A DNA stretch of 41,986 bases from NCBI GenBank assembly GCA_012728655.1, contig JAAYEQ010000010.1, forward strand, positions 1 to 41,986, written 5' to 3'. Made by a program: the position numbers and the translations under genes. This DNA is from Syntrophomonadaceae bacterium (lineage in GTDB: Bacteria > Bacillota > Syntrophomonadia > Syntrophomonadales > DTU052). Positions 32,907 through 41,931 of this stretch are shown here, one piece after another; position 1 is the first letter of the stretch; each line of letters opens with the position of its first letter. Under the pieces are notes generated by a model, which searched no databases, was not told the DNA's origin, and was given only the letters and a program-made list of their open reading frames with translations.

Positions 32907-33015
32907 ATGGCCGCTTTTTTGTAAGCCTTGCTCTTTAAGATGTAATCAGGTTCACGGGTTTAACGGAATTGCATTCAGGACTGCGGTGGCCCATTATGTA
33001 AAGGGGGTGATAACA

Positions 33016-33717
33016 TTGGAAAAGCAACGGGTTCTGGTAGTTGATGACGACCGGGAGATAGTAAACGCCATTGCCATCAATCTGCAGAACGAGGGCTATG
33101 AGGTACTGAAAGCCTACGATGGACTGCAGGCCCTCGATATAATAAGCACGCAGAAGGTGCATCTCATCATCCTGGATGTCATGATGCCCAAGTTGGACGG
33201 GCTTTCCACTACGATGAAGATTCGTGCCGAAAAAAACATCCCTATCATCATTCTGTCGGCAAAATCGGAGGATACGGACAAAGTCCTAGGGCTTTCGATG
33301 GGAGCCGACGATTATGTCACCAAGCCGTTCAACACCATGGAGCTCATGGCCCGGGTTAAATCACAGTTGCGACGTTATATGACCCTGGGGGATGTCAATG
33401 TGCAGAACCCGGCGAACATCTTGAAAACAGGCGGTCTCTGCTATGACCTGGAATGTCATACCCTGACCGTCGACGGCGAGCCGGTGAGGTTAACCCCCAC
33501 CGAAACCAAGATAGTTGAACTTCTGATGCGCACTCCGGGACGGGTCTATCCGGCGGAGGAGATCTACGAGCGCGTATGGGGGGAAAAAGCCTATGGGGTT
33601 GAAAACACGGTTATGGTACACATCCGCCGCATCCGGGAGAAGATCGAAATAAACCCGAAAGAGCCGAAATACTTAAAGGTGGTATGGGGCATTGGATACA
33701 AAATCGAAAAACTCTAA
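33016..33717 (+). CDS. OmpR-family response regulator
   Basis: The 233-residue protein has a receiver domain: D10/D11 acidic pair, phospho-acceptor D54 in LIILDVMMPKLDG, S in ILSAKSE, and the Lys of YVTKPF. An OmpR-type winged helix follows (LTPTETKIVELLMRTPGRVYPAEEIYERVWG, NTVMVHIRRIREKIE, YLKVVWGIGYKIE). The start is TTG, 6 nt from AAGGGGGTGA; the frame is open upstream to 32986, but the site decides this start. It overlaps the histidine kinase gene by 26 bp, so the pair is coupled. The repeat at 32887-32906 is its likely binding site. Confidence 0.95.
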   Translation: MEKQRVLVVDDDREIVNAIAINLQNEGYEVLKAYDGLQALDIISTQKVHLIILDVMMPKLDGLSTTMKIRAEKNIPIIILSAKSEDTDKVLGLSMGADDYVTKPFNTMELMARVKSQLRRYMTLGDVNVQNPANILKTGGLCYDLECHTLTVDGEPVRLTPTETKIVELLMRTPGRVYPAEEIYERVWGEKAYGVENTVMVHIRRIREKIEINPKEPKYLKVVWGIGYKIEKL

Positions 33718-35725
33718 ACCCTTTCTGGCCTGGCTCTCATTTTTCGCAGGGCTGAGCCTGTTGTTCTTTATTTTGTTCTCAGGTTTTGCGGCTCTGGTTC
33801 ACTCCGGCGGCAACTTTGAGGTTCTGAAATTGCAATTCAGTAAGGACTATAAGGATACCGCCGCATTCAAGGAACGAACAGCCAATTATTTTGATCAGTT
33901 GACCTATGCGGCTACAGCCGATAATGTCTACCTGGGAAACCTAAGTGACGAAGGAGACAACCTCAGGTATTATCTGGTCAATCAGGCAACCGGCTTGACG
34001 TTAAAGAATACCGGTGAAGAACTCAAGCTTTCTCCTTCCAGCGGGCTGCCGGTTTTGCCGGACGGCTACAGCTATTTCTGGTATTTCGACGGGGAAAAAC
34101 TCCAGGTAATAGACAATGGCCGCCCGGTCGATATCAAGCGCACCGACAGCGGCTATCGGGAGATTACACGCCGGCTGATGACAAACCACTCCGGTTCCGA
34201 GTCAGCCGCCGCTCTCGCCAATACCCGTATAGTACTGGCGGTAAAGGATATCCTGGAGGAAAACCCTTACGGTCATTCCGATTATTACGCCGAACAGAAA
34301 TTCATTTCGATTATCAAACCCGTCTATGGATTGCTGGTCGTTTTGACCATGGTCTGCCTGGGGTTGTATCTTTTCCAACGCCAGGAAAAACAAAGGTTGG
34401 ATAAAGCCCTGGCCGCCTGGTCAGGAAAATTCTGGATAGAAGCAAAGGCATTCCTTTCCTTCATGGTGCTAATCTTCCTGGCCGTGGTTCTGGAGAAGAA
34501 CTATTGGCTTGGTTTGGCACCTTTCACTTCGGAGTTCGTGCTTAACGCGACCGCGGTCACCATCGCTCTTTTAATAACCGGATGGTGGTTTTACCTGATG
34601 TTGATCGATCTGCTGGTCAACCGCAAAGCCTTCTTTGGCCACAACCTGGTAAATACTGTTATAAACTGGTACCGTAAATTAGAAAGCCGTTACCCCTGGC
34701 AGGAAGCCATGCTGAAACGGGCATATTTTCTCCTGGCCGCTGTAACGGTCCTGGCTTTGTTTTCGGTATTTTTCTTGCTGCAATCTGTCGGAACCGGGAA
34801 TTCCATTTCATTTATTATGTCCCTTATTCTGGCAGCAACCGGAGTGTATCTCATAATCCGTTACATGAAGCGTTTTCAACAGACTGTCACCAGTATGGGG
34901 CAGGTTGTTGATCATATTGAGCTGATTAAGCACGGCGATTTTAATACCCGGCTGGAGCTGCCTGAAGATGACGACATGTATCAGACGGCCATAAACCTAA
35001 ACTCCATCCAGGAGGGCATGAGCAATGCGGTCGAGGAAAAAATGAAATCCGAACGCATGAAAGTGGAGCTAATAACCAATGTTTCCCACGATTTAAAGAC
35101 TCCCCTGACCTCGATTATCAGCTATATAGACCTTCTGGCAAAGGAAGAAGGTCTGCCGGAGCACGTCAATGATTACATCAGTATACTGGCACAAAAGTCG
35201 GAGCGCCTCAAAAACCTGATCCAGGATTTGTTCGACTTATCAAAAGCCAGCAGTGACAGCATGGCTCTGGATTTGGAAAAGCTCGATCTGGCAAGGCTCA
35301 TCCACCAAACCATGGGAGATATGGAGGAACAGATAACCGCCTCCAATCTTGCCTTCCGGCTGAACATCCCCGACCGGCCGGTGATAATAGAGAGTGACGG
35401 CGGCAAACTGCGCCGAGTACTGGAAAACCTGATTTCCAACGCGTTGAAATACTCCTTGCCCGGCTCGCGGGTGTTCATCGACCTTGTCACCACCGATGGT
35501 GAAGCGATTGCCACGATAAAGAATACCGCCAACTATGAAATGGATTTTACCCCCGATGACATTATGCAGCGTTTCGTCCGGGGAGATGAATCCAGGAGCA
35601 CCGAAGGTTCCGGACTGGGACTATCCATCGCCCGGAGCTTTACCGAGATATGCGGCGGCAAGTTCTCAATCACCATAGACGGGGATTTGTTCAAGGTGGA
35701 GCTTCGGTTCAGCCTTGCACCTTGA
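33692..35725 (+). CDS. membrane sensor histidine kinase, partner of the OmpR regulator
   Basis: The 677-residue kinase has about six membrane helices (12-36, 211-227, 253-267, 283-305, 344-364, 370-390). The first two flank an extracytoplasmic domain of about 175 residues, and the others form a multi-helix block that is unusual for a simple two-helix sensor. A HAMP-like linker (about 391-445) leads to the H-box with H466 in NVSHDLKTPLTSI. The N box is RRVLENLISNALKYS and the G2 box GSGLGLSIA. The usual DxGxG G1 box is not obvious; the segment reads IATIKNTANYEMDF, as in some clostridial kinases. The TTG start lies inside the regulator gene, behind AAAGGTGG. The signal is unknown. Confidence 0.93.
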   Translation: MDTKSKNSKPFLAWLSFFAGLSLLFFILFSGFAALVHSGGNFEVLKLQFSKDYKDTAAFKERTANYFDQLTYAATADNVYLGNLSDEGDNLRYYLVNQATGLTLKNTGEELKLSPSSGLPVLPDGYSYFWYFDGEKLQVIDNGRPVDIKRTDSGYREITRRLMTNHSGSESAAALANTRIVLAVKDILEENPYGHSDYYAEQKFISIIKPVYGLLVVLTMVCLGLYLFQRQEKQRLDKALAAWSGKFWIEAKAFLSFMVLIFLAVVLEKNYWLGLAPFTSEFVLNATAVTIALLITGWWFYLMLIDLLVNRKAFFGHNLVNTVINWYRKLESRYPWQEAMLKRAYFLLAAVTVLALFSVFFLLQSVGTGNSISFIMSLILAATGVYLIIRYMKRFQQTVTSMGQVVDHIELIKHGDFNTRLELPEDDDMYQTAINLNSIQEGMSNAVEEKMKSERMKVELITNVSHDLKTPLTSIISYIDLLAKEEGLPEHVNDYISILAQKSERLKNLIQDLFDLSKASSDSMALDLEKLDLARLIHQTMGDMEEQITASNLAFRLNIPDRPVIIESDGGKLRRVLENLISNALKYSLPGSRVFIDLVTTDGEAIATIKNTANYEMDFTPDDIMQRFVRGDESRSTEGSGLGLSIARSFTEICGGKFSITIDGDLFKVELRFSLAP

Positions 35726-35753
35726 AATAAAAACCGTTAATTCCCCGTCAAAT

Positions 35754-35781
35754 TTGGTCTTATAATCAAATGTGTTATAAT
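35754..35781 (+). promoter_or_regulatory. promoter of the riboswitch-betaine transporter operon
   Basis: TTGGTC (35754-35759) and TATAAT (35776-35781) are 16 bp apart. This puts transcription start near 35788, about 50 nt before the riboswitch. Between them, ACCAGA (35785-35790) and TCTGGT (35812-35817) can form a small leader hairpin. Confidence 0.6.
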
Positions 35782-35838
35782 GTTACCAGACCTTGGCGTG
35801 CTGATTTACATTCTGGTTAAACCCGACGCTTAACGGTT

Positions 35839-36006
35839 AACGCCAGTCTGATAGCCCGAAAAGACAATTGAATACTATGACTGTTCTATATGCCGAGTCC
35901 TCAATATACATGAGGAGCGGGGGAACCACTATATTGGGGTGAATCTAATTTCCGAATTGGTAGGGATGCCCTTGTCCCGAACCCGTCAGCTAACCTCGTA
36001 GGCGTT
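35839..36006 (+). ncRNA. c-di-AMP riboswitch (ydaO-yuaA type)
   Basis: The conserved ydaO core is present in order: GCCGAGTCC (35892-35900), GGAGCGGGGGAACCA (35914-35928), TTGGGGTGAATCT (35934-35946), GTAGGG (35960-35965) and a TCCCGAACCCGTCAGC/TAACCTCGTAGGC block (35975-36003). The closing helix P1 pairs AACGCC (35839-35844) with GGCGTT (36001-36006). This RNA binds cyclic di-AMP; in the family ligand binding favours termination. The terminator hairpin follows 22 nt downstream, giving a complete OFF switch. It precedes an osmolyte ABC importer, a typical target of c-di-AMP control, so high c-di-AMP would cut osmolyte uptake. Confidence 0.93.
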
Positions 36007-36028
36007 TAAGGGGAGAATATGCGGTGTT

Positions 36029-36058
36029 AAAGAGCCGAATCTTCTCGGCTCTTTTTAT
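36029..36058 (+). terminator. riboswitch expression-platform terminator
   Basis: A 10-bp stem (AAAGAGCCGA with its complement TCGGCTCTTT, 36029-36038 and 36045-36054) with a 6-nt loop runs into TTTTTATT. It is placed just after the riboswitch P1 helix and is the likely c-di-AMP-controlled attenuator. Confidence 0.9.
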
Positions 36059-36149
36059 TGCTTCTCGTCACGCCTATCAGTTTTTCCCACCAGTTTCCTC
36101 ATGGTGTTTTCAATGAAAGGAGGGAGTAGTCCGCGCCATTCTGGTTTTG

Positions 36150-36170
36150 CTTATCTGTCAGGCAGATAAG
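36150..36170 (+). promoter_or_regulatory. second leader hairpin before the substrate-binding protein
   Basis: CTTATCTG (36150-36157) and CAGATAAG (36163-36170) form a perfect 8-bp stem with a 5-nt loop, about 60 nt ahead of the substrate-binding gene. It has no T-run, so it is not a second terminator; mRNA stabilisation or an operator is possible. Confidence 0.4.
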
Positions 36171-36229
36171 TACCCATTTTCGGCAAACATATCATCACTT
36201 ACATCTTATTTCGCAAGGGAGGAATTGCT

Positions 36230-37093
36230 GTGAAAAAAATCTGGATAACAGCCGCGCTATTATTAGCTATGACTATGGGCCTGGGGTTGATTGCCGGGTG
36301 CTCCAACACCAACGATACCGGTCAAGACAGGGTAATCAAACTGGGACACGCCCCCTATGACTATGAGGTTCCCTTTATCGAAATAACCAAGCAGATTGCG
36401 GAAGAGCGAGGTTACCAGGTGGAGGTGATGGAGGGTGATATCGGTTTTATGTTTATGTCGCTGGTGCAGGGAGACATTGATGCCTGGCCCGGAGTTTGGC
36501 TGCCTTCGATTCACCGTACCTACCAGGAAAAATACGGTGACCAATATGAACTGGGCAGTGCCATATTTACCGATGCTCCGGTGGGCTGGGTAGTACCCAA
36601 ATACGTTGAAATAGACTCCATTGCCGATCTTCAGGGCAATGAGGACCTGGTAGGCGGCAAGTTGGTCGGTTTTGAGCCAGGGTCGGGGATGATGCTGGTT
36701 TCCGAGGAAGTAGTTGACGGTTATGACCTCAACATTGAAATCCTATCCGGCACCATGGCTTCAATGATGGCCGAAGTAGACTACGCGATCAAGCAGCAGC
36801 AGCCCATACTATTTCTGGGGTGGAGACCCCATACCATGATGGTAAAGTATGACGTGAAGGTGTTGGACGATCCCAAGGGTTATTGGGAAAAAGACTCCGA
36901 ATTATGGGGTATAAGAAAGGGATTTCAGGACAAGGCACCTGATATGTACAACTTCTTTAAGAACTTCAAGATGAGCCTGGACGATACCGAGGAGTTCCTG
37001 TACGCATATCAAGAAGAAGGCAAAGATGTCAAGGCTTTGGCCAAGGCCTGGATCGACGAACACCGGACCGAAATTAACTCGTGGTTTGAATAA
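36230..37093 (+). CDS. glycine-betaine-type ABC transporter substrate-binding lipoprotein (OpuAC/ProX family)
   Basis: The 287-residue protein has a lipoprotein signal (LGLIAGC, lipidated Cys near residue 24). An OpuAC fold follows: GHAPYDYEVPF, GDIDAWPGVWLPS and GWRPHTMMVKYDVKVLDDPKGYWE. In the family aromatic residues cage a quaternary ammonium. Here the usual PHW reads PHT, and the first W region reads YDYE, so the ligand may be atypical. The GTG start follows AAGGGAGG. It is the first gene of a three-gene importer (spacing 30 bp to the ATPase), under the c-di-AMP riboswitch. Likely substrate: glycine betaine, carnitine, choline or a related osmolyte. Confidence 0.9.
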   Translation: MKKIWITAALLLAMTMGLGLIAGCSNTNDTGQDRVIKLGHAPYDYEVPFIEITKQIAEERGYQVEVMEGDIGFMFMSLVQGDIDAWPGVWLPSIHRTYQEKYGDQYELGSAIFTDAPVGWVVPKYVEIDSIADLQGNEDLVGGKLVGFEPGSGMMLVSEEVVDGYDLNIEILSGTMASMMAEVDYAIKQQQPILFLGWRPHTMMVKYDVKVLDDPKGYWEKDSELWGIRKGFQDKAPDMYNFFKNFKMSLDDTEEFLYAYQEEGKDVKALAKAWIDEHRTEINSWFE

Positions 37094-37123
37094 GTGTTTT
37101 TTCCTATCAAGGAGGTCCCCTGA

Positions 37124-38320
37124 ATGAGTCTTATCGAAGTAAACAACCTTTTTAAGATATTTGGGAAAAACCCGACAAAAGCTCAAAAGATGTTGGCCGA
37201 AGGATATTCCAAGGATCAGATTCTCTCAAAACTGCAGGCAACTGTTGCCGTCAATGATGCTTCTTTTACCGTCGAGCAAGGTGAATTATTTGTTGTGATG
37301 GGCCTATCCGGCAGCGGCAAATCAACTCTGATACGCTGCCTCAACCGGCTCATTGAACCTACTTCGGGCCGTGTAATAATAGATGGTGCTGAGGTTACCA
37401 AGATGGATCATAATGCGTTACAGGACTTGCGCCGCCAAAAAATAAGCATGGTCTTCCAGGGTTTCGCGGTTTTCCCTCATATGACAGTACTGGAAAATAC
37501 GGCTTACGGCTTGAAGATCAGGGGCCTGCCTCTCAAGGAGCGCAACCAAAAAGCTTATGAGACTTTGGAAATGGTGGGGTTAAAGGGTTGGGAGAATTAC
37601 TACCCCGACCAACTCAGCGGGGGGATGAAGCAAAGGGTAGGCCTGGCCCGGGCCCTGGCTACCGAACCGGATATTTTACTAATGGACGAGGCCTTTAGCG
37701 CCCTGGACCCACTGATCCGGAAAGAAATGCAGAATGAACTGATTCAACTGCAGAACACCGTGCGTCGAACCATTGTGTTTATAACCCACGATCTTGACGA
37801 AGCCTTAAAAATTGGTGACCGTATCGCATTGATGAAAGATGGGGCCATCGTTCAGATAGGAACTCCTGAAGAAATCCTGATGAATCCAGCCAGCAACTAT
37901 GTGGAGAAATTTGTTGAAGATGTTGATCGCTCACGGGTACTGACCGCAGAGATGGTCATGAAAAAACCGATTGCGGTTGTTACCTACCCCAAAGACGGAC
38001 CCCGGGTAGCCCTGCGCTGTATGCGGGAAAACGGAATATCCAGCATCTTCGCAGTTGATAACCGTTTCCGTCTCCAGGGAATTGTCATGGCTGAGGACGC
38101 TTTGGAAGCGGTGGAACAAAACCAAAAGGACCTGACACAGATACTTAACCGGGATATATCAACTGTAAAACCGGATACGATATTAAAGGATCTGTTTAGC
38201 CTGCTTTCCCAGAATAACCTGCCCCTGGCAGTAGTCGACAACGAGAACCGGCTATTGGGAATAATAGTCCGTGGTTCGGTCATGGCCAAGCTGGCTGAGG
38301 GAGGGGGAGCTGATGATTGA
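37124..38320 (+). CDS. glycine-betaine-type ABC transporter ATPase with CBS domains
   Basis: The 398-residue ATPase has Walker A (GLSGSGKST, about 60-68), signature LSGGMKQRVGLARAL, Walker B ILLMDEAFSALDP and the ITHDLDEA His. From about residue 270 two CBS-type units follow (TAEMVMKKPIAVVTYPKDG..., QILNRDISTVKPDTILKD...), as in ProV/OpuAA/OpuCA. In related transporters these domains gate activity by ionic strength or bind c-di-AMP. AAGGAGGT precedes the ATG. Its end overlaps the permease start by 8 bp. Confidence 0.95.
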   Translation: MSLIEVNNLFKIFGKNPTKAQKMLAEGYSKDQILSKLQATVAVNDASFTVEQGELFVVMGLSGSGKSTLIRCLNRLIEPTSGRVIIDGAEVTKMDHNALQDLRRQKISMVFQGFAVFPHMTVLENTAYGLKIRGLPLKERNQKAYETLEMVGLKGWENYYPDQLSGGMKQRVGLARALATEPDILLMDEAFSALDPLIRKEMQNELIQLQNTVRRTIVFITHDLDEALKIGDRIALMKDGAIVQIGTPEEILMNPASNYVEKFVEDVDRSRVLTAEMVMKKPIAVVTYPKDGPRVALRCMRENGISSIFAVDNRFRLQGIVMAEDALEAVEQNQKDLTQILNRDISTVKPDTILKDLFSLLSQNNLPLAVVDNENRLLGIIVRGSVMAKLAEGGGADD

Positions 38321-39152
38321 TTTTTTTATTCCGGTGGCTGATTGGATTAACACGGCCTTTGATGCCATCAGCCTTAGTATAAGCCCAACCCTCAGGACAA
38401 TAAGCGCCTTTTTGGAAACCATAATCAAAGGCTTTGAAAACATTCTGTTGTGGCCGCCCGAAGTAGTAATCCTGGTCCTGGCCAGTATACTGGTATGGAG
38501 GGTAGCAGGTGCCAAATTAGCTGTTTTTGCCTTTCTCGGACTCCTGGCCACTATTGGTATGGATGTCTGGCAGGAGACGATGGCCACGGTCGCCCTGGCC
38601 CTATCCGGAACTCTGGTTTCCCTCCTGTTTGCCATACCGTTGGGTATACTGGCATCACAGAGCAATACAGCCGAGAGGATTATTCGTCCAATACTTGATT
38701 TTATGCAGACTCTTCCCAGCTTCGTATACCTGATACCAGCAGTCATGTTCTTCGGCATGGGTAAGGTTGCCGCTCTGGTTGCAACCATGATCTTTGCCAT
38801 GCCGCCTCCGGTTCGTCTGACCAACCTGGGGATCCGTGAAGTGTCCCATGAAATGGTGGAGGCAGCGCGTTCGTTTGGTTCAAACCGTTGGCAAACACTG
38901 GTTGATGTCCAGCTGCCGCTGGCGATGCCTACCATCATGGCTGGTGTTAACCAGTGTATCATGATGGCGTTGTCTATGACGGTCATAGCATCCATGATCG
39001 GAGCAGGCGGCCTGGGTTTGGTAGTGCTGCGCTCGATGCAGACACTTGATATCGGTATGGGAACAGTCGGTGGTCTCGGCATAGTCATCCTGGCTATCAT
39101 TCTTGACCGTTTAACTGAAAGCATTGCCGGCGATAATCGCAATAACAGGTAA
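38313..39152 (+). CDS. glycine-betaine-type ABC transporter permease (ProW/OpuAB)
   Basis: The 279-residue membrane protein has about six to seven helices and the permease EAA loop EAARSFGSNRWQTLVDVQLPL, followed by PTIMAGVNQCIMMALSMTVIASMIGAGGLG, typical of ProW/OpuAB. Only one permease is present, so it should homodimerise. The ATG at 38313 lies just after GGAGGGGGAG and overlaps the ATPase stop; a GTG/ATG further upstream is not needed. The operon thus encodes binding protein, ATPase and permease, and ends with a hairpin. Confidence 0.94.
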   Translation: MIDFFIPVADWINTAFDAISLSISPTLRTISAFLETIIKGFENILLWPPEVVILVLASILVWRVAGAKLAVFAFLGLLATIGMDVWQETMATVALALSGTLVSLLFAIPLGILASQSNTAERIIRPILDFMQTLPSFVYLIPAVMFFGMGKVAALVATMIFAMPPPVRLTNLGIREVSHEMVEAARSFGSNRWQTLVDVQLPLAMPTIMAGVNQCIMMALSMTVIASMIGAGGLGLVVLRSMQTLDIGMGTVGGLGIVILAIILDRLTESIAGDNRNNR

Positions 39153-39189: not shown

Positions 39190-39229
39190 CTTGGACAGCA
39201 TGTATTAATTCATGCTGTCCAAGGTTATA
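39190..39229 (+). terminator. long hairpin after the betaine transporter operon
   Basis: A perfect 13-bp stem (CTTGGACAGCATG with its complement, 39190-39202 and 39211-39223) with an 8-nt loop is followed by GTTATAT. It lies 37 bp after the permease stop; the tail is T-poor, but the stem is strong. Confidence 0.7.
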
Positions 39230-39324: not shown

Positions 39325-40758
39325 TTATTCCTTTATGCCGGCAAGGTATTTGGCCAGGTTTTTCTTGGACTCCATATCGTAGGAGCTCATCACCGCAATG
39401 TCTTCCATAATTGGCGACCCTCCACCATGTACACCGGCGATCTGCCCAAGTACCGTTGCCATTTCTGAGGTCAGAAGGTCGCTGGCAAGATGGAAAGCTC
39501 GATAGTGGTTCTCGGGCGAGACTCCCTCTCTTCTGGTAACGTACTTCTTGACGAATTCACCGACAACAGGATGGTTGTACTCCTTGCTGAGAGGCAAGGT
39601 AGCAGGAAGACCCCCGGCGATATCACAGAGTATGTTGTACTCATGGTAGATGTTGTGACCGGCATGTCTTCTTCCTACGTTGGCGTAGATGATATCCGGA
39701 ATCTGAGTTCCCGAAGGAGCTTTTTTGGACTTAACTGCAGAAGCAATACCTGCGGCGAATACCAGCTCAGCCACGCTCACCATCTCGGCCAGTTTCTCCC
39801 TGACGTGGCTCATCTTTTCTATTCCCAGATAATCAGCCAGTAGTGCGGTGGTTCCCATCAGCACATCACCCATGCCGGGTTTGCATCCACAGTAGCTATG
39901 GCGGTGGTACAGGGCAAACAGCAACGCCAATTCGCCCCCGAACTCAGTTTCACCATTGATAAATATCCTCTCATTGGGCACAAAAACGTGGTCCAATACG
40001 GTGAAGCTCTCCACATCGGCAAATTCCGCTATAGGGGCTTCCATTCCCGGAGCCCTTTCCGCAAAACGGCTTTCGCGGCCAATCAGGTACACACCCTCGG
40101 CATCCGCAGGAATGGCAAAAGCTATCGCCCAGTCTTTTTCGTCCTTCATCAGCCTGCGGGTGGGAATAACTATAATTTCGTTAGCGTAGGGTGCCATTGT
40201 ATTATGAAGCTTGGCTCCGCATACCACTACTCCATCCGGTCTTCTTTCCACTACCCGCACATACTGGTCAGGATCCGGCTGTTCTCCCGGCCTCAGCCTT
40301 CTGTCACCCTTGGGGTCGGTCTGGCCCCCAGCGGCCACCAAATCGTTTTCCTGAAAGTACTCCAGGTATTTCAGGAAGCGTTGGTGATAATCGGTTCCAT
40401 ACTTGATATCGGCATTTTTGGTGGTTATGGAAAGAGCATTCATCATATCAATACCCATGCATCTCTGAATACACCCGCCCACCAGATTGCATAATACGCG
40501 GGTCATCTCCTGTTTCATCAACAGGTCTTCCTGGCTTTGATGGATATGAGTAAAACGGTTGATTGGTTTACCGGTAAGATGGGAAGTGGTAACCAGCCAC
40601 TTTTTATATTTGGGATCCTCGGCCAGATCGAAAGTTAGCTGAATGGCCTTGCTGGCTCTCACGATCCGCGGGTCGTCGCGACCGATTAGCTCTCCGTCAA
40701 GATAAATGTTTTTCCTCATGGCAAACAATGAATTTAAGTACTGTTCAGAAGTTCTCAC
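39325..40758 (-). CDS. abfD: 4-hydroxybutyryl-CoA dehydratase-like [4Fe-4S]-flavoprotein
   Basis: The 477-residue protein belongs to the HpaB/AbfD family. C96, C100, H285 and C292 sit at the spacing of the [4Fe-4S] ligands of clostridial 4-hydroxybutyryl-CoA dehydratase (Cys99, Cys103, His292, Cys299). Y289 and K293 match its catalytic Tyr296 and Lys300. GAKLHNTMAP and the HGGGSPIMED end are also typical. This favours radical dehydration of 4-hydroxybutyryl-CoA to crotonyl-CoA over aromatic hydroxylation. GGAGGAATT precedes the GTG start. No 4-hydroxybutyrate dehydrogenase or CoA-transferase gene is adjacent, so its pathway here is unclear; it could feed crotonyl-CoA into the beta-oxidation enzymes. 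Confidence 0.85.
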   Translation of the reverse strand: MRTSEQYLNSLFAMRKNIYLDGELIGRDDPRIVRASKAIQLTFDLAEDPKYKKWLVTTSHLTGKPINRFTHIHQSQEDLLMKQEMTRVLCNLVGGCIQRCMGIDMMNALSITTKNADIKYGTDYHQRFLKYLEYFQENDLVAAGGQTDPKGDRRLRPGEQPDPDQYVRVVERRPDGVVVCGAKLHNTMAPYANEIIVIPTRRLMKDEKDWAIAFAIPADAEGVYLIGRESRFAERAPGMEAPIAEFADVESFTVLDHVFVPNERIFINGETEFGGELALLFALYHRHSYCGCKPGMGDVLMGTTALLADYLGIEKMSHVREKLAEMVSVAELVFAAGIASAVKSKKAPSGTQIPDIIYANVGRRHAGHNIYHEYNILCDIAGGLPATLPLSKEYNHPVVGEFVKKYVTRREGVSPENHYRAFHLASDLLTSEMATVLGQIAGVHGGGSPIMEDIAVMSSYDMESKKNLAKYLAGIKE

Positions 40759-41271: not shown

Positions 41272-41739
41272 TTATTCAACTTGGGTTGACAAGAATATGG
41301 GCAAAGTCATCTGCTCAATCTGATCTAAAAGCTCCTCGAGTTCATCGATATGACGGTCTTCATCGTTTAGAATCTCTATGAGAAGATCCCGTGTTGCATG
41401 GTCACGCACCTCAGCCGCGAGCACGATGGCATCATTATAAGCTTTGATTGCGCTTTCCTCCGCAGCACGGTCATTTTCTATTTGCTTGGGAACATCTTTT
41501 CCAATATGGATGCTGCTCAGCTTGGATACAATGGGTGTACCACCGAGAAACAGAATCCTACCGATGAGCTTTTCGGCATGCCTCATTTCCTGTATTGCCC
41601 GTTTCTCAAAGCTCTCATGCAGCTTACCGTAGCCCCAGTCCTCGCACATCTCAGCGTGTACAATGTACTGATTGATGGCCGCAAGCTCGTCCGCAAGCAA
41701 AGCATTAAGAGTTTCAATAAGCTTCGGATCACCTTGCAT
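41272..41739 (-). CDS. bfr: bacterioferritin
   Basis: The 155-residue four-helix protein has the ferroxidase ligands E18, Y25, E51, H54, E94, E127 and H130 at exactly the numbering of classic bacterioferritin when started at the ATG at 41739. M52, the haem-ligating Met, is also present (QEMRHAEKLIGRILFLGG). It oxidises Fe(II) and stores iron in a 24-mer, protecting against iron-driven oxidative damage. AGAGGAG lies 8 nt from this ATG; a GTG two codons earlier (41745) is too close to it. It has no bfd ferredoxin partner nearby. Confidence 0.93.
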   Translation of the reverse strand: MQGDPKLIETLNALLADELAAINQYIVHAEMCEDWGYGKLHESFEKRAIQEMRHAEKLIGRILFLGGTPIVSKLSSIHIGKDVPKQIENDRAAEESAIKAYNDAIVLAAEVRDHATRDLLIEILNDEDRHIDELEELLDQIEQMTLPIFLSTQVE

Positions 41740-41931
41740 ATGCACAACTCCTCTCTTTTAAATTAGTGTCAATAATTATATACAGGTTTGACCTACTTGT
41801 TGCGCCGACGGAAAGCGATGATGTGAACTGCATTTTCTCATACACTATGTTTGTGGTAGTATAAGAATACCGAGAATGGCAGTCTAAAATTCCATAGTTC
41901 GGTAAAAAAGGAGGAGTCACTGCATAGCATC

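Follow-up and report, generated by a model that had tools for sequence, protein, structure and literature searches.

The window analysed here is a stretch of 41,986 nucleotides (nt) from a Syntrophomonadaceae bacterium (contig JAAYEQ010000010.1). It carries on the forward strand the operon proX-proV-proW, which encodes an ATP-binding cassette (ABC) importer with CBS domains on its ATPase, and upstream of proX a leader with a riboswitch for cyclic di-AMP (c-di-AMP). A preliminary description, made from the letters of the DNA alone, had named all of these elements, and the ProX/OpuAC-ProV-ProW operon was confirmed by Pfam and NCBIfam models. The features are listed in Table 1 together with the other riboswitch-preceded genes of the same genome.

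The best PDB match of ProX was the substrate-binding domain of OpuA. Among PDB entries, ProV was most similar to Lactococcus lactis OpuA (7AHC, query residues 4-392, E 1.6e-126), and its AlphaFold model, with a mean predicted local distance difference test score (pLDDT) of 87.6, was most similar to 7AHE, 'OpuA inhibited inward facing'. The best match of ProW was the OpuA permease in 7AHC; ProX and ProW matched different parts of this permease chain and are encoded here by separate genes, without a fusion. At the cationic helix-turn-helix that serves OpuA as ionic-strength sensor (Lys16, Arg17, Lys19) ProV has Lys at Lys16 and Asn at Arg17, and the third Lys is off by one position. The operon probably encodes an osmotically controlled importer of betaine or a related solute.

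Table 1. Features of the locus and other riboswitch-preceded genes of the genome
Feature	Position	Strand	Basis or remark
c-di-AMP (ydaO/yuaA) riboswitch aptamer, RF00379	35881..36019	+	cmscan, own covariance model, invariant columns
P1 closing helix	35891-35894 : 36001-36004	+	covariance-model alignment; folds of transcripts with 3' ends at 36006-36018
Predicted antiterminator (35883-35887 paired to 36031-36035, 35890-35895 paired to 36022-36027)	35883..36035	+	duplex energy, minimum-free-energy folds of transcripts with 3' ends at 36030-36046
Intrinsic terminator with a stem of 10 bp, a loop of 6 nt and a U tract that runs to about 36058	36029..36054	+	pairing probability in the folded leader
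proX, substrate-binding lipoprotein, OpuAC family, 287 amino acids, GTG start	36230..37093	+	PF04069, E 1.5e-57
proV, ATPase of betaine/proline/choline ABC importer, 398 amino acids	37124..38320	+	TIGR01186, 485 bits, cut-off 326.6
Tandem CBS domains of ProV, residues about 269-391, OpuA type	37928..38296	+	PF00571 twice, fold model
proW, permease, 8-nt overlap with proV stop	38313..39152	+	PF00528, E 3e-27
13-bp inverted repeat 3' of operon, possible transcript end	39190..39223	+	tail not U-rich
proX-proV-proW without CBS	C78 (L070)		riboswitch-preceded
OpuC-like operon	C47 (L071)		riboswitch-preceded; ATPase keeps most of OpuCA pocket (V, V, T, Y, L, T, R)
Ectoine-type ABC ATPase	C36 (L003)		riboswitch-preceded; EhuA above cut-off
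Glutamate 2,3-aminomutase	G000:C11:67000-72500 (L072)		riboswitch-preceded; above cut-off

The riboswitch and its terminator

The aptamer matched RF00379 over the full length of the model (positions 1-134) and reached 107.6 bits, where the gathering score is 38 (E 7.4e-25); this single copy was the sole Rfam match across the 42-kb window. A ydaO-type switch had been placed at 35839-36006 in the preliminary description. Its existence was borne out by the covariance model, which found the aptamer within the suggested search region of 35800-36060; the proposed span began about 42 nt and ended 13 nt too early. A permissive scan of 35500-37200 (E<=1) returned nothing besides RF00379, and no tandem Na+ riboswitch was found by the Rfam scans of this region and of the window. 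Our own covariance model (R1) scored the aptamer at 109 bits. The aptamer ranks by score among the best in the host's class, and in an alignment with 18 other aptamers of that class every invariant column was present in it. By covariance model, the element is a genuine c-di-AMP-sensing RNA switch, which would be expected to bind this ligand.

The terminator had been claimed at 36029-36058, in agreement with the stem and U tract that were found, and most of the stem pairs had a pairing probability of >0.9 in the full leader. When growing transcripts were folded, P1 was present at most lengths up to about 36018. P1 gave way at transcript ends between about 36026 and 36046, where its 5' strand paired with 36022-36027 and 35883-35887 paired with 36031-36035, a part of the left arm of the terminator. 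The predicted antiterminator that results has a duplex energy of -11.2 kcal/mol and is incompatible with both P1 and the left arm of the terminator. At transcript end 36042 the antiterminator fold had an energy of -44.2 kcal/mol, compared with -41.0 kcal/mol when P1 was enforced, and this gap of 3.2 kcal/mol could be reversed by ligand binding. The complete leader folded with the terminator whether P1 was present or not. These folding models support a transcriptional OFF switch, with c-di-AMP as the probable terminating signal. For a Dehalobacter c-di-AMP riboswitch the ligand causes transcription termination in vitro, although the alternative pairing proposed there involves the other shoulder of P1, unlike that in the window (PMC9337991).

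The CBS domains of ProV

The CBS domains, which had been expected at residues 270-398 of the ATPase, were recovered at almost the same place (Table 1). Most of the region had a pLDDT of about 84-96, and its last full block one of 75. The c-di-AMP pocket of Listeria OpuCA comprises V260, V280, T282, Y342, I355, R358 and A359 according to a review (PMC7288161), from which the contact positions were taken; the I357 of that review is Thr in the 5KS7 sequence. At these positions the window ProV has Ala284, Ile305, Ser307, a gap at the Tyr, Ile380, Val382, Arg383 and Gly384, and Arg383 aligns with OpuCA Arg358. The corresponding residues are Thr, Val, Ser, gap, Val, Ile, Arg and Gly in Lactococcus OpuA and Gly, Arg, Tyr, gap, Ile, Ser, Lys and Gly in E. 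coli ProV. Because the residues at the contact positions resemble those of OpuA, the CBS region of ProV is of the OpuA type and not of the OpuCA type; with A, I, S, gap, I, R and G it is identical to the OpuCA pocket only at I355 and R358.

In Lactococcus OpuA, bound c-di-AMP was seen by cryo-electron microscopy and the transporter is inhibited by it (PMC10243994). This is the only CBS ATPase of the OpuA/BusA type for which binding is demonstrated. From the similarity to this protein, c-di-AMP sensing by the CBS domains of the window ProV is plausible.

The messenger and the other riboswitches of the genome

One diadenylate cyclase, DisA, is encoded in the genome beside a RadA-like gene (G000:C63, L006:798-1874). 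Neither CdaA nor any other second diadenylate cyclase was found in the genome, which is rated 96% complete. As DisA is the sole cyclase found, this suggests that a DNA-integrity cyclase feeds osmotic control. A 7TM-HD (PgpH-like) hydrolase is also encoded, and from this gene content the messenger should exist in the host cell.

The genome contains five RF00379 riboswitches, all of which precede compatible-solute genes. The three betaine-family importers, one with OpuA-type CBS domains, one with OpuCA-type CBS domains and one without CBS domains, are all located behind such a riboswitch. The glutamate 2,3-aminomutase on contig C11 would lead to the osmolyte beta-glutamate; its gene is followed by one for a CitMHS/ArsB-type transporter.

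Distribution in the class and phylum

The riboswitch was present in 52 of the 63 genomes of the host's class. ProV homologues were assigned to a riboswitch by position (same strand, <=4.5 kb); the class-wide RNA scan was run with stricter filters, and the counts treat related genomes as independent. A riboswitch was linked to 32/36 ProV genes with CBS domains and to 23/27 without them (Fisher p 0.72), and several of the unlinked genes sit near contig ends. A riboswitch combined with a CBS-bearing betaine importer is thus the standard arrangement in the class. The special coupling between riboswitch and CBS domains that the preliminary description had implied was rejected on the same counts: as both kinds of ProV were linked equally often, the riboswitch tracks betaine import and not the CBS domains, and there is no sign of selection for the pairing itself. 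Presence of the key Arg and of the riboswitch was not significantly associated (33/4 vs 53/16, p 0.19, relatedness ignored).

A sample of 100 ProV loci from the rest of the phylum gave only 11 strong and 3 weak riboswitch matches. By type, these fell on 9/72 OpuA-type loci with CBS domains, 2 to 5 of 10 without CBS domains and 0/18 of the OpuCA type. The linkage of riboswitch and importer is a trait of the host's class, not of the transporter family.

In the class as a whole, c-di-AMP riboswitches were also observed before genes of osmolyte synthesis. These encode glutamate or lysine 2,3-aminomutases and, in single cases, DapB, an EctB-like aminotransferase of class III or a GNAT acetyltransferase. 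The osmolyte-synthesis loci of the class are L012, L014, L016, L017, L021, L025-L027, L029, L033 and L038.

Gene order, origin and neighbourhood of the operon

The standard CBS operon of the class has the order riboswitch-V-W-X, proV lying about 200 nt from the riboswitch; in the CBS-less operon the order is riboswitch-X-V-W and the spacing about 1230 nt. Unusually, the window operon pairs a CBS-bearing ProV with the X-V-W order. When a tree was built from the ATPase domain, the window ProV fell outside the main cluster of CBS-bearing ProVs from the class and was nearest to that of G051:C43 (74% identity), followed by G228:C7 (62%), with support values of 0.98 and 0.63. The latter comes from outside the class, has proX upstream and is preceded by a riboswitch. 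For the operon as a whole, too, G051:C43 (L073), from a genome of the same taxonomic order, is the nearest relative, with 67 to 75% identity and the same gene order. No riboswitch was found in the 640 nt upstream of it, where a missed copy was also sought. Either G051 lost the riboswitch or the lineage of the window acquired it. Compared for signs of inheritance together with the operon, the window aptamer had a flat identity to other aptamers (0.63 to 0.73). A scan of the genome contigs with a single protein gave only three distant relatives.

A VanR/VanS-like two-component system, consisting of an OmpR-type regulator and a 677-amino-acid membrane kinase, is encoded on the same strand at 32986-35725 and ends just upstream of the riboswitch; it scored under all NCBIfam vancomycin-resistance cut-offs. 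Downstream, the opposite strand carries a gene for an HpaB-superfamily protein (39325-40758), which we take to be possibly 4-hydroxybutyryl-CoA dehydratase-like, and then one for a bacterioferritin above the cut-off (41272-41745).

Discussion

Control of the operon by the riboswitch is strongly supported by the covariance-model match, the terminator, a plausible antiterminator and the class-wide occurrence of the switch before betaine-import genes. At high c-di-AMP concentrations, in cells not under hyperosmotic stress, the ligand would bind the nascent leader and hold P1 closed, the terminator at 36029-36054 would form, and proXVW would not be transcribed. When c-di-AMP drops, the 5' strand of P1 would pair downstream and sequester the left arm of the terminator, and the operon would be transcribed. 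Importers that are already assembled are probably inhibited as well, through binding of c-di-AMP between the two CBS domains of ProV in the manner of Lactococcus OpuA. We hold the combination of both, an OFF switch on transcription and inhibition of the importer, to be moderately probable. Of the earlier suggestion that one messenger acts twice, the transcriptional part was upheld by the covariance model, the terminator and the class context, while the part concerning the CBS domains is, from residue comparison, plausible only.

Several observations weigh against this combined reading. The antiterminator was equalled by 2% to 6% of dinucleotide shuffles, so that its complementarity is modestly above chance. 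The CBS region is identical to that of OpuA at only 43/122 positions, the window ProV has neither the aromatic nor the Thr residues of the OpuCA pocket, and a special riboswitch-CBS coupling was rejected in the class. In the differential radial capillary action of ligand assay (DRaCALA) no c-di-AMP binding was seen for S. agalactiae BusA (PMC5919688) or B. anthracis ProV2 (PMC11302148), and BusAA homologues are listed as negative in a review, which also points out that the assay has limits for membrane complexes (PMC10243994). The effect on the CBS domains is likely rather than certain, with OpuA binding c-di-AMP and being inhibited and BusA and ProV2 being negative.

These results lend some weight to a control at a single level, in which the riboswitch is a working OFF switch and the CBS domains of ProV sense another adenine nucleotide, assist ionic-strength gating or merely hold the ATPase dimer together. 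The negative assays of several OpuA-type ATPases, the absent OpuCA-type pocket and the equal frequency of the riboswitch before CBS-less importers would all fit it. In addition, CBS domains are retained in E. coli ProV, and to our knowledge Escherichia is not a genus known for c-di-AMP. However, Lactococcus OpuA binds the ligand as an assembled complex despite its negative homologues, and the window ProV has the OpuA-type residue pattern including the Arg. We regard control at a single level as a serious but somewhat improbable explanation.

It is very improbable that the aptamer is intact and acts on translation or RNA stability, with the hairpin at 36029-36054 not being its output. A simple terminator-like hairpin was detected within 220 nt of only 24/48 distinct aptamers by a strict scan, which would agree with another output, but this rate is far above the 7% in shuffled sequences, the terminator of the window is strong, and the start codon of proX lies about 170 nt past the hairpin, too distant for direct occlusion. 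That the riboswitch is a decayed, unresponsive passenger captured when the operon moved is hardly credible, since all invariant columns are retained and the score is among the best of the class, although the closest relative of the operon is without a riboswitch and the gene order departs from the class standard.

A wider reading for the class would regard the c-di-AMP riboswitch as the general transcriptional brake on import and synthesis of compatible solutes, placed before betaine importers of different build, and inhibition through CBS domains as a rapid second brake that is optional. The X-V(CBS)-W operon of the window would then have acquired its riboswitch separately from the V-W-X operon that is standard in the class. 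Taken as a whole, we consider this tentative and rather unlikely.

Comparison with known systems

A description of a riboswitch together with CBS domains for a betaine ABC importer was not found in the literature searched, with key subscription papers lying outside this search; ydaO riboswitches near osmoprotectant genes have long been known (PMC7288161). Control by c-di-AMP at two levels is already known from KtrAB, with a riboswitch and KtrA, and from BusA, with BusR and CBS domains. OpuA/BusA of Lactococcus and Streptococcus is likewise an ABC importer for betaine with CBS domains on its ATPase, and c-di-AMP both represses its transcription and acts as an inhibitor of the transporter itself (PMC10243994, PMC8517857). 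It differs in that transcription is controlled by the repressor protein BusR, the riboswitch being absent from lactic acid bacteria, and in that permease and substrate-binding domain form one fused protein, whereas the window has a separate proX. OpuC of Listeria and Staphylococcus is also an osmolyte ABC importer, with c-di-AMP-binding CBS domains on the ATPase OpuCA, but its pocket (V-DT...Y...TRA) is missing in the window and mostly kept in the C47 paralogue. CBS sensing in OpuA-type importers is contested, with cryo-electron microscopy positive for Lactococcus OpuA and DRaCALA negative for others. The genome with its three importers is a ready-made control set, in which slow control of transcription and fast control of transport by c-di-AMP could be separated in one background. 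If the CBS part is true, one signal would shut the importer down at two levels. The value of the case is this comparison of three importers in one genome, not a new kind of system.

Among the more distant parallels, ktrAB of B. subtilis combines a c-di-AMP riboswitch with the c-di-AMP-binding KtrA for one transporter (PMC11302148, PMC7288161), the protein receptor in the window being a predicted one; it is a potassium channel with an RCK_C domain and not a betaine ABC importer with CBS domains. In mgtE of B. subtilis the riboswitch and the CBS region of the gene product also share one ligand (PMC8844918), but this ligand is Mg2+, acting on a Mg2+ riboswitch and on the Mg2+-gated CBS region of a Mg2+ channel. 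The ablA gene of Dehalobacter shares with the window a c-di-AMP riboswitch and a terminator before an osmolyte gene (PMC9337991), although there the riboswitch is in tandem with one for Na+ and the gene serves osmolyte synthesis, not import.

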